From NCBI GenBank assembly GCA_945868435.1, contig CAMBLG010000001.1, forward strand, positions 186,001-250,000: 64,000 nt of DNA, read 5' to 3'. This document shows, one piece after another, positions 54,981 to 58,048 of this stretch. The stretch comes from an uncultured Lachnospiraceae bacterium (GTDB lineage: Bacteria; Bacillota; Clostridia; Lachnospirales; Lachnospiraceae). The position numbers were made by a program, and so were the translations under genes. Each line of letters opens with the position of its first letter. Within the stretch, counting starts at the first letter, position 1. The notes below the pieces were generated by a model. It was not told where the DNA came from. It saw only the letters and a program-made list of their open reading frames with translations, and made no database searches.

Positions 54981-56669
54981 ATGCTACAGAACTTACATGT
55001 GAAAAATCTGGCTCTGATCGATGAGGCGGAGGTCGAATTTGCCGAAGGACTCAATATCCTGTCGGGAGAGACCGGAGCCGGTAAATCCATCATAATCGGA
55101 TCCATCAATCTTGCTTTGGGGGAAAAAGTGCCAAAAGAACTTCTGCGGGACAACGACGATACGGCCTTTGTGGAGCTGGTATTCTATGTGGACAATCCAG
55201 AGGTGTTGGAGGCAATCCGCAGACTGGGAATCGAGGCCGAGGATGAGACAATTATATTAAATCGTAAAATAACTTCCGGAAGAGCAATTGCAAGAATTAA
55301 CGGTGAGGCTGTGTCTGCATCCAAACTCAAGGAAGTTGCGGCGTTGCTCATTGACATTCACGGACAGCATGAACATCAGTCCCTGCTCCATAAGAAAAAA
55401 CATCTGGAAATTCTTGACGCCTATGCCAAAGATGCTTTGGGGGATCGAATTGAGCGGCTTTCCCGCTGCTATCATGAGTATCGGAAGCTGGAAGAGGAAT
55501 GGGCGAATGCCAGTATGGACAGCGAGGAGCGAAGCAGAGAACTGTCCTTTCTCCAATATGAAGTAGACGAAATCGAACAGGCCTCCCTTCGGGTAGGAGA
55601 AGACGAGGAACTGGAACAGCTGTATCGCAAATTCTCCAATGGGAAAAAACTTATGGATGCCGTGAATATGGCATATGCTGCCGTGGGGGCGGAGGATGGC
55701 AACGCATCGGAACGGATCGGACGCGCGCTTCGGGAGCTTTCTGCAGTAGCGCAGTATGATGAGAAGGTGGCGGGATTGGAAGAGCAGCTAGCAGACATCG
55801 ATAATCTGCTGGCGGATGTCAGCCATGAGATGGCGGCCTATCTGTCGGATGAGGAGTTTGATGATGAAACTTATTTCGAGACAGAAAAGCGCCTGGATCT
55901 GATCAATCATCTGAAATCCAAGTATGGAACCACAATCGAAGCAATTCTTACAGCCTGTCAGGAAAAGACAGACCGAATCAATATTCTGAATGATTATGAC
56001 GAATACTTAAATCAGCTTTCAACAAAAAAGAATCAGAAAAGGCAGGAACTGGATGACTTGTGTGAGCAGGTGTCTAAGCTGCGGAAGAAGGAGAGTGTAA
56101 AGCTGTGCACTGCGATTCAGGAGTCACTGAAGGAATTAAACTTCCTGGATGTGCGCTTTACCATGGAATTTGTCAGAACGCAGGATTACACGGCACTGGG
56201 AACGGACGATGTAGAGTTTATGATCTCCACGAACCCGGGTGAACCGGTAAAACCGTTGGGGAAGGTGGCTTCTGGTGGAGAGCTGTCACGCATCATGCTG
56301 GCTATCAAGACAGTCATGGCGGAATCGGATGACATTGCCACGTTGATCTTTGATGAAATTGACAGCGGAATCAGCGGGCGCACGGCGCAGATGGTATCAG
56401 AAAAGATGAACCTGATCGCAAAGAATCACCAGATCATCTGCATTACACATCTGCCACAGATTGCAGCTATGGCCAATTCTCATTTCCTGATCGAGAAGTC
56501 GGTGGAGCATCAATCTACATACTCACGAATCAAGCGACTGAAAGAGGAGGAGAGCATCGAAGAGCTTGCACGTATGTTAGGAGGCGTAGAGATTACAGAT
56601 ACGGTTATGCAGAGTGCAAGAGAGATGAAACAGATGGCAGCCAGGGTTCGGGAAAACACCCGGGCGTAA
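54981..56669 (+). CDS. recN: DNA repair protein RecN
   Basis: A 562-residue SMC-like ATPase in double-strand break repair. Walker A is GETGAGKSIII (residues 30-40). Long coiled-coil arms follow from about 150 to 390. The C-terminal ATPase half has the signature KVASGGELSRIMLAIK and the Walker B strand LIFDEIDSGISGRTAQ. AAGGAAAGG is upstream. The hairpin at 56695-56752 probably ends its transcript. Confidence 0.96.
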   Translation: MLQNLHVKNLALIDEAEVEFAEGLNILSGETGAGKSIIIGSINLALGEKVPKELLRDNDDTAFVELVFYVDNPEVLEAIRRLGIEAEDETIILNRKITSGRAIARINGEAVSASKLKEVAALLIDIHGQHEHQSLLHKKKHLEILDAYAKDALGDRIERLSRCYHEYRKLEEEWANASMDSEERSRELSFLQYEVDEIEQASLRVGEDEELEQLYRKFSNGKKLMDAVNMAYAAVGAEDGNASERIGRALRELSAVAQYDEKVAGLEEQLADIDNLLADVSHEMAAYLSDEEFDDETYFETEKRLDLINHLKSKYGTTIEAILTACQEKTDRINILNDYDEYLNQLSTKKNQKRQELDDLCEQVSKLRKKESVKLCTAIQESLKELNFLDVRFTMEFVRTQDYTALGTDDVEFMISTNPGEPVKPLGKVASGGELSRIMLAIKTVMAESDDIATLIFDEIDSGISGRTAQMVSEKMNLIAKNHQIICITHLPQIAAMANSHFLIEKSVEHQSTYSRIKRLKEEESIEELARMLGGVEITDTVMQSAREMKQMAARVRENTRA

Positions 56670-56675
56670 GCAGCT

Positions 56676-56705
56676 GTATAGTTGTTGAAATTTTACCGCA
56701 TACTA
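56676..56705 (+). promoter_or_regulatory. Sigma-G-like promoter for spoIVB
   Basis: GTATA at 56676-56680 and CATACTA at 56699-56705, 18-base spacer, fit the forespore sigma-G pattern GHATR-N18-CATNHTA as known from Bacillus. Transcription would start near 56712. spoIVB is a sigma-G gene in Bacillus. Confidence 0.65.
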
Positions 56706-56752
56706 TTAGGAGTGTTCAAGCAATGGAACGGAGGAATAGTATGCGGTCTTTT
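56695..56752 (+). terminator. recN terminator hairpin overlapping the spoIVB start
   Basis: ACCGCATACTATT (56695-56707) pairs perfectly with AATAGTATGCGGT (56735-56747), then CTTTTT. The 27-base loop holds the spoIVB ribosome-binding site (56730-56734) and the 3' arm holds its ATG (56741-56743). Confidence 0.75.
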
Positions 56753-58048
56753 TATGCCCAGTTTTATAAAAATTTAATTTGGATTTATTTATGCGTACTT
56801 TGCTGCTTTGGATATAACAGTATGTTATCGGCCATTCCGGATCATGTCTATCTGAAGGAAGGAGATGACCTGAAGCTGGACTCTATGCTTCCGGTGGAAC
56901 TGGAGGTGGTAGATGCTTCCCAGACGGTTATGGCTGAGGTATTACCCGCGGAGCAGGAGACCAACTGTGACACCCTTGCTGTGGGGGAGCATGAGGTGGT
57001 GTGCTACCTGTTTGGCATCCTGCCTGTCAAAGAAGTGGAAGTGTCGGTTGTGGAGGGCACAAAAACTTATGCGGCGGGCCGGGTTGTGGGAATCTACGGT
57101 GCAACACAGGGCGTATTGGTTCTGGGAAGCAGCCCGGTGGAGACGACGGACGGCGTATACCGGGAACCCTCGGAAAATCTGGTGTTTGCCGGGGATTACA
57201 TCGTGGCGGTCAACGGGGAACCCATTGAGGAGAAGGAAGAACTGATCCAGCAGGTGAACGCCTTTGGCGCAGACAAGCTGACACTGACGCTGTGGCGGGG
57301 AGAGGAGCTGATCGATGTGTCTGTGCAGGCGGTTCGCGTGTCCAACGATCCAAAGAAAACGGATAGCAGGAATAAGACTGTGACAGAATCCGGGAGCAAT
57401 TCCTCAAATTATATGCTGGGCCTGTGGGTGAAGGATGACATGGCAGGAATCGGCACGTTGACCTACTATGATGAGAACGGCAATTTCGGTGCTTTGGGAC
57501 ACGGAATCGGAGACGGGGAGACCGGAGAACTGCTTCGGATCAAGCGGGGCTTGCTTTACGATGCCCAGATTCTTGACATTCAGAAAGGAAAGCGAGGCAC
57601 ACCGGGGGAACTGCAGGGGGCGGTGAACTATGGCAGATCCAATGAAATCGGCTCCGTTGCCAGCAACACAGACATCGGCATATATGGGACATTGAAGACT
57701 GCGCGGCTGGATGCCTTTTCCCAGGAAGACGACCTGTATCCGGTGGGCTATAAGCAGGATGTTAAGCTGGGAGATGCAGTGATGCTGTCGGACGCATCCG
57801 GCGAGCTTGGAACCTACCACATTACCATAGACTCATTGGATTATTCCCCGGCAGATACGAACAAAGGAATCCGGTTTCATGTGGATGATGCCAAACTTTT
57901 GGACTTGACCGGCGGCATCGTTCAGGGACTCAGCGGCTCTCCGATCATACAGAATGGGCGGATCGTCGGCGCTGTGACCCATGTGCTGGTGAATGAGCCG
58001 ACCCAGGGGTATGGAATTTTTATAGAGAATATGCTGGAGAATCATTGA
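56741..58048 (+). CDS. spoIVB: SpoIVB serine peptidase (sporulation)
   Basis: A 435-residue SpoIVB, the forespore signalling protease that in Bacillus triggers pro-sigma-K processing. GGAGG at 56730-56734 selects the ATG at 56741 over 56723. A membrane helix (about 11-30) is followed by a PDZ domain (GVLVLGSSPVETTDGVY and FAGDYIVAVNGEPIEEKEEL). The S55 peptidase has GALGHGIGD with the catalytic His and GIVQGLSGSPIIQNGRIVGAVTH with the catalytic Ser. All key residues are present. Downstream, where spo0A is usual, no spo0A is found. Confidence 0.95.
   Translation: MRSFYAQFYKNLIWIYLCVLCCFGYNSMLSAIPDHVYLKEGDDLKLDSMLPVELEVVDASQTVMAEVLPAEQETNCDTLAVGEHEVVCYLFGILPVKEVEVSVVEGTKTYAAGRVVGIYGATQGVLVLGSSPVETTDGVYREPSENLVFAGDYIVAVNGEPIEEKEELIQQVNAFGADKLTLTLWRGEELIDVSVQAVRVSNDPKKTDSRNKTVTESGSNSSNYMLGLWVKDDMAGIGTLTYYDENGNFGALGHGIGDGETGELLRIKRGLLYDAQILDIQKGKRGTPGELQGAVNYGRSNEIGSVASNTDIGIYGTLKTARLDAFSQEDDLYPVGYKQDVKLGDAVMLSDASGELGTYHITIDSLDYSPADTNKGIRFHVDDAKLLDLTGGIVQGLSGSPIIQNGRIVGAVTHVLVNEPTQGYGIFIENMLENH

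Follow-up and report, generated by a model that had tools for sequence, protein, structure and literature searches.

A hairpin between recN and spoIVB that may join a terminator, a translation lock and a forespore promoter in Lachnospiraceae

Within the window (the whole 64,000-nt stretch of DNA analyzed here), recN and spoIVB follow each other on the forward strand, with 71 nt between the end of recN and the spoIVB ATG at 56741. This region harbors the inverted repeat ACCGCATACTATT / AATAGTATGCGGT, whose arms form 13 of 13 Watson-Crick pairs and are separated by 27 nt, together with the elements GTATA and CATACTA at an 18-nt spacing. The features of the locus are:

54981..56669, + strand: recN (open reading frame; TIGR00634, E 2e-152); read-through RNA would carry both arms
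56676..56680, + strand: GTATA, -35-like element of a sigma-G/F-type promoter (from sequence)
56695..56707, + strand: 5' arm of the hairpin, ACCGCATACTATT (inverted repeat, covariation)
56699..56705, + strand: -10 element CATACTA inside the 5' arm (from sequence; columns A10, T11, A12, T14 and A15 invariant in 26/26 aligned rows)
56708..56734, + strand: loop with predicted sigma-G start and Shine-Dalgarno sequence (from sequence and fold)
56711..56713, + strand: predicted transcription start, about 7 nt past the -10 (from general promoter geometry)
56723..56725, + strand: alternative in-frame ATG in the loop (from open reading frame and sequence)
56730..56734, + strand: Shine-Dalgarno sequence GGAGG, 6 nt 5' of ATG 56741 (from sequence)
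56735..56747, + strand: 3' arm with the spoIVB start codon, AATAGTATGCGGT (inverted repeat, covariation)
56741..56743, + strand: spoIVB start codon ATG, facing CAT in the -10 (no variation among the 26 rows, the ATG itself being their anchor)
56741..58048, + strand: spoIVB coding sequence (TIGR02860 equivalog, 325.6 bits, cut-off 305.25)
56748..56753, + strand: CTTTTT, U tract of the read-through RNA, spoIVB codons 3-5 (from sequence; T run in 20/26 anchored rows of the genus)

This layout bears out a first-pass annotation of the same DNA, which had described a perfect 13-bp stem between the two genes. In that description, the -10 of a sigma-G-like promoter is part of the 5' arm and the spoIVB ATG is part of the 3' arm, with the ribosome-binding site in the loop and CTTTTT behind. 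GTATA and CATACTA provide a -35 and a -10 of sigma-G type at the 17-18 nt spacing of the consensus, and the promoter is presumed to belong to sigma G. Transcription is expected to start about 7 nt past a -10 in general promoter geometry, and it is by this predicted position that the 5' arm, with the -10 inside it, lies upstream of the promoter's own start site. The start codon (56741-56743) is held in the 3' arm, as expected of a start-codon hairpin that senses read-through. The 13-bp stem followed by CTTTTT resembles the stable stem and U tract of an intrinsic terminator, and the loop of 27 nt exceeds the short loop (~3-8 nt) of such elements. A stock sigma-70/terminator scan reported no terminator at the locus within its loop limit of 3-8 nt, and the three promoter-like sites that the promoter scan reported all lie on the opposite strand. 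Inspection by eye for an antisense sigma-G promoter reading from the 3' arm revealed no -35 at 17-18 nt, and no Rfam family matched the recN-spoIVB region up to E 1. The alternative ATG at 56723 is preceded by an SD-like AGGAG (56708-56712) that is largely outside the predicted sigma-G transcript and present mainly in read-through RNA; a start at this ATG would yield a SpoIVB protein six residues longer.

The region 56660-56770 has a folding energy of -38.8 kcal/mol (z -4.64; 0/200 shuffles as low), and its repeat is the sole perfect repeat of at least 13 bp with a loop of 3-60 nt in the 64-kb window. Among 3000 first-order Markov resamples of a 91-nt region, none reached 13 bp, the best being 12. 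For read-through RNA, the AUG has a predicted probability of 0.001 of being unpaired, and the opening of the stretch from SD to start is predicted to cost 18.1 kcal/mol. For the predicted sigma-G RNA, the corresponding values are 0.12-0.17, so that the AUG would not be fully open, and 7.3-7.5 kcal/mol; this predicted opening cost serves here as the measure by which the long RNA would be poorly and the short RNA well translated. The loop ATG 56723 is predicted to be accessible in read-through RNA (0.955), which suggests that a translation lock may leak in the window's species. Genome-wide, the pattern GNATR-N17/18-CATAMTA is hardly enriched (21 matches vs 17 for the reversed pattern). The promoter call at spoIVB thus rests on conservation at the site, and the pattern yields no general list of sigma-G genes from the window's genome.

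A mechanism can be proposed in which spoIVB would be expressed only when transcription begins at its own forespore promoter. Polymerase arriving from recN, a damage-inducible gene, would copy both arms, and the hairpin with its U residues would end most of this RNA. In any read-through RNA that escapes, the spoIVB AUG would be closed in the stem, where ribosomes could not start. The promoter GTATA-18-CATACTA would be used in the forespore by polymerase carrying sigma G, perhaps after an earlier phase with sigma F, and the resulting RNA, begun inside the loop and devoid of the 5' arm, would pass the T tract and be translated from AUG 56741. The likely benefit would be that SpoIVB is kept out of growing cells and of the mother cell. 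The start site, the sigma factor, termination, translation efficiency and the benefit against premature SpoIVB are inferred.

Comparison with related loci drew on two sets. Of 62 genomes of the window's genus, 53 yielded a spoIVB locus; a second set comprised the best 80 of 576 loci from named genomes, mostly labelled Lachnospiraceae or genera thereof and including Roseburia faecis and R. inulinivorans, and some of these duplicate the genus set. The 5' side was anchored on the -10 and the 3' side, separately, on the start codon, so that pairing played no part in the alignment. Rows for anchoring (sets of 16 and 26 rows) were chosen by eye for the compact layout. Among the 53 genus loci, 26 were anchored and 24 showed another layout, two were unreadable (L235 gave no alignment and L021 begins within spoIVB) and L216 was set aside as chimeric. 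The 26-row alignment consists of the anchored genus rows minus one identical row plus L069 from outside the genus, with stem-less rows kept. The set-aside locus L216 (G137:C64) is near-identical to the window through the end of recN and the first spoIVB codons; about 100 nt past the start of the 5' arm its identity drops abruptly, indicating either an assembly chimera or a recent recombination.

Twenty of the 26 anchored genus rows keep at least 11 of the 13 register pairs (this count includes both L213 and L214, whose arms are identical), four keep 9 (L004, L219, L181, and L233) and two have lost the stem. The relatives share one register, in which the CAT of the -10 lies opposite the AUG: 87.9% of cells in the 26-row alignment are paired, as compared to 25-49% with slid partners. 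Two-sided changes occur at 7 of 13 pairs in 35 cells, a number reached in 2/500 shuffles, and covariation amounts to 0.298 vs 0.133 ± 0.017. The 16-row set gave similar values, with 88.5% of cells paired (slid 26-49%) and a covariation of 0.334 vs 0.165 ± 0.023; neither covariation value was reached in any shuffle, a result (0/500 each) that is not readable as a probability because the rows are related. The weak one among five measures in the 16-row set was the number of further pair types (41/500). At the two pairs just outside the CAT, the changes (GC to AU and CG to GC) stem chiefly from one lineage (L006, L213), two-sided changes at both helix ends are more varied among rows, and two of the 13 pairs are invariant. 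Both the covarying stem bases and the conserved -10 that the first-pass annotation had named as its check were thus recovered from the anchored rows, and the comparisons indicate that the pairing is under selection.

The -10 and the promoter spacing are kept in most anchored relatives, and most carry ACATG, GAATA, GAATG or GTATA as a -35 at 17-18 nt (exceptions are L023, L230, L233, and L069). In rows with at least 11 pairs the loop measures 12-28 nt, with 69 nt in L007, and the distance between the arms ranges from 12 to 101 nt across the anchored rows. Among the named relatives, Roseburia faecis M72 (L037) carries the hairpin. In a SpoIVB tree, which was built by a quick method and contains some long branches, the compact form of the genus falls in one starred clade of 20 rows (17 with the stem, two with the stem lost and one chimeric); L069, scored as having the stem, falls outside this clade.

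The two losses differ in their genomic context. In G133 (L215), the upstream neighbor of spoIVB is a divergent gene; over 380 residues, its product and the pilB-like ATPase that adjoins the locus in the window are 56% identical. The recN gene of this genome lies about 1.5 kb downstream of spoIVB, in the opposite orientation, and has its own strong hairpin at its 3' side. Here, spoIVB retains GTATA-18-AATACTA and its start, and the stem is down to 7 of 13 scattered pairs (fold -8.0 kcal/mol vs -23.6 kcal/mol in the window). In L005 (G032), the order recN-spoIVB is kept, the stem is lost (8 of 13 scattered pairs) and the CAT has changed to GAT. A different hairpin was seen by eye directly behind the degenerate -10 of this locus and was rejected by the terminator scan. 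It had been expected that close relatives with the same gene order would keep the 5'-arm pairing. This holds for the 20 rows with at least 11 of 13 pairs and fails in L005, formally the refuting case, while the loss in G133 coincides with a moved recN.

The role of the hairpin as a terminator of recN, as had been proposed, gains support from the distribution of T runs among these loci. A T run in spoIVB codons 2-7 is present in 20 of the 26 anchored genus rows. For three of the six rows without it (L004, L219, and L233), the scan detected a separate terminator, that of L004 being a hairpin and T tract that overlap the recN end; the others are L005, L215, which has no recN upstream, and L182, whose T run is broken. 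Among the 24 genus rows of other layout, a separate terminator was detected in 21 and a T run in three. One match of the terminator scan, in L003, falls within the recN coding sequence. The T tract is accordingly found mainly where a separate recN terminator is absent, which backs a terminator role of the compact hairpin. For stem and T run, independent pairs on the tree agree with the expected direction in 4/4 cases (p 0.125; only four such pairs exist).

Alternatively, the element could be a translation lock only, with read-through RNA continuing unterminated while its AUG or SD is sequestered. The length of the loop (12-28 nt, and 69 nt in L007), which is long for an intrinsic terminator, counts against the merged model and speaks for this alternative, as do the pairing of SD and start across the wider family described below and the precedent of B. 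subtilis sigG, in the text available of that study (PMC5942855). Set against these points are the T run in 20/26 anchored rows and the separate terminators in 21/24 genus rows of other layout, and a lock without termination is considered unlikely. The sequence CATA[ACT]TA was found within ~330 nt upstream of spoIVB in 74 of 96 distinct loci (22 lack it in the searched stretch), and 48 of the 74 exhibit a hairpin with a T tract. In 43 of these 48, the hairpin starts less than 7 nt past the end of the -10 (22 at 0-2 nt, 20 inside or before the -10), and in 41/48 an RNA start 7 nt past the -10 would cost the hairpin at least half of its energy. Consequently, promoter RNA of the wider family, too, would lack part of the 5' arm of the terminator.

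A lock on translation during growth, the second role that had been claimed, is supported by the pairing of -10 and start region in loci that possess a separate terminator. The duplex energy of each locus's own 5' and 3' sides was compared with that of permuted partners; an ungapped-helix search over four bases of the -10 had missed bulged locks. Own partners were favored in all 74 loci (-13.53 vs -9.70 ± 0.27), in 15 compact loci (-19.05 vs -14.34 ± 0.83) and in 56 other loci (-11.81 vs -9.17 ± 0.28), each with 0/20000 permutations as good. When the 15 nt ending with the -10 were paired with the start region (-22 to +8), 55 non-compact loci gave -9.17 kcal/mol vs -6.91 ± 0.25 (0/20000), and the 30 of them in which a separate terminator abuts the -10 gave -8.83 vs -6.70 ± 0.36 (0/20000). 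In these 30 loci the pairing is thus kept where a further terminator seems unneeded, which backs the lock role. Windows overlapping the same stretch (-15 to +11) reached z -4.9 to -10.0. Displaced windows gave no signal (z -1.6 to +3.6), whether the 5' window was moved 20-60 nt upstream or set from +0 onward, or the 3' window was moved away from the start region. Across the wider family, G-U pairs and bulges occur in the pairing, which is uneven by locus: 24 of the 74 loci beat 95% of foreign partners. Among the 55 non-compact loci, 17 do so, and in 19 the own partner binds less strongly than foreign partners do on average. In three loci (L012, L013, and L014), the lock is formed by other sequences (ACAACC/GGTTGT, GCCGCA/TGCGGC) that are shifted upstream and still pair the neighborhood of the -10 with the start region.

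The same data bear on the possibility that the hairpin is merely the recN terminator, packed for space onto the promoter and first codons of spoIVB, with the hiding of the AUG as a by-product. This would explain why the T tract accompanies the stem chiefly in loci for which another terminator was not detected, and why the spoIVB stem is gone in G133, whose recN has a separate hairpin. It does not account for the 30 loci that pair the -10 with the SD/start despite a separate terminator (0/20000), nor for the lack of such pairing in windows off the start region, and its probability is rated as slight. A role at the DNA level, with a regulator binding the repeat or a cruciform influencing the promoter, would fit a perfect dyad that overlaps the -10; it is highly improbable, given that the arm distance varies from 12 to 101 nt among anchored rows, that the half-sites change in compensating fashion and that the wider family pairs with G-U pairs and bulges. 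Finally, chance complementarity between the -10 (CATAC) and the start (GTATG), which is built in for CAT and AUG and would suit the two pairs that never vary, can practically be dismissed, as the flanking pairs covary, the permutation preserves the motifs and yet attains the observed value in 0/20000 cases, and displaced windows exhibit no such pairing.

The reading to which we assign a probability of roughly three in four is that one sequence would act as terminator of recN, translation lock of spoIVB and promoter of spoIVB, and the mechanism given in the first-pass annotation is in this sense well supported by the comparison. The compact clade is best regarded as a merger of the terminator of the wider family with the translation lock. 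In this design, a promoter element would double as the complement of a start codon and a terminator would spare RNA that is begun inside it; the model predicts start and end positions within a few bases.

Fold-back inhibition is known from IS10 and IS50, where read-through RNA hides the transposase start and RNA from the internal promoter does not; that mechanism shields the transposon from outside transcription, and its arms derive from terminal repeats. An ordinary intrinsic terminator shares the G-C-containing stem and T tract at the recN end with the present element, which differs by its long, SD-containing loop, by a T tract that falls among the codons of the following gene and by a 5' arm that includes a promoter element. 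For B. subtilis sigG (spoIIIG), the accessible part of one study describes a hairpin of 20+ bp that cannot form in PsigG RNA and for which the proposed role is to prevent read-through transcripts from PspoIIG from being translated (PMC5942855). The likeness lies in a forespore gene behind a transcribed operon and a hairpin specific to read-through; the gene and its neighbors differ, and the text at hand describes a translation block rather than a terminator with -10 and AUG in its arms (PMC5942855). In contrast to sigG, the present lock is found at spoIVB and recurs in many Lachnospiraceae loci. In phage T4, long early RNAs of genes e, soc, 49, and I-TevI hide the SD or AUG, and late-promoter RNA without the 5' part of the structure is well translated, with a 100-fold effect for gene e; these are phage late promoters, and a terminator role is not among the descriptions in the sections available (PMC3014915).

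A start-site study of C. phytofermentans reports, in its accessible portion, an antisense start opposing spoIVB, which is a separate matter (PMC5171806). The available parts of three further articles describe no comparable element (PMC3789829; PMC3890552; PMC12251134), and a literature search, from which most subscription journals were excluded, returned no account of a recN-spoIVB element in the text it covered. As far as these partial sources extend, the principle is already known from B. subtilis sigG and T4 gene e, and the merged form at spoIVB was not found in the literature searched. The features that appear to distinguish it are the union of terminator, lock and promoter and its wide recurrence. 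Release of sigma K is triggered from the forespore by SpoIVB. According to the part available of a further article, its production in B. subtilis is under the control of sigma G, and SpoIVB made in the wrong cell is able to activate pro-sigma-K there (PMC4383634). If it operates as proposed, the block on transcripts running in from recN would secure, at the level of the sequence itself, a developmental checkpoint of the spore-forming Lachnospiraceae.

At the class level, a search of 60 genomes gave 30 readable loci, three of which have CATA[ACT]TA or CATATAATA upstream of spoIVB, and at the order level outside the genus this applies to 2 of 18; judged by these -10 variants only, the form seems mostly confined to Lachnospiraceae. 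In two order-level relatives (L163, L170) and in L110, CATAATA or CATACTA was seen by eye in the 5' arm of a terminator-like hairpin before spoIVB, suggesting that a promoter within a terminator may extend beyond the genus. In the window's genome, the same kind of lock was found at a second gene, which encodes a DUF1540 protein and follows a thrS-like gene. Across the genus, 12 of 21 such loci were testable (five had no start found and four no -10), yielding -8.78 vs -6.48 ± 0.70 with 10/20000 permutations as good, and the lock is clear in six of the 12.

It is tentatively suggested, at somewhat less than even odds, that Lachnospiraceae possess a standing design in which forespore genes behind growth-phase genes have their promoter built into the upstream terminator and a lock on the start region, by which RNA not born at the spore promoter would be stopped and silenced. 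At spoIVB, this design would protect the sigma-K checkpoint from leakage in growing cells or the mother cell, and the clade to which the window's species belongs would have merged the three functions into a single hairpin, with a -10 complementary to the start codon. The DUF1540 lock, found in part of the genus, is put forward alongside this reading as a second case of the same kind of lock.

Individual loci show variants of these layouts. The DUF1540 locus L112 lies outside the window, at G000:C1:116716-116744 and beyond in the downstream direction. Its GTTACATACT has GGTATGTGAC, at the SD, as its pairing partner, and a small terminator-like hairpin is located between the two. Differing versions of the DUF1540 layout occur in L142, L145, L157, and L162. 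Behind a glycogen-synthase-like gene (L116; G000:C1:336792), CATACTA was seen by eye to abut a strong terminator hairpin, AGAACGGATACC..GGTATCCGTTCT, followed by a T run; RNA from this promoter would not contain the hairpin fully.
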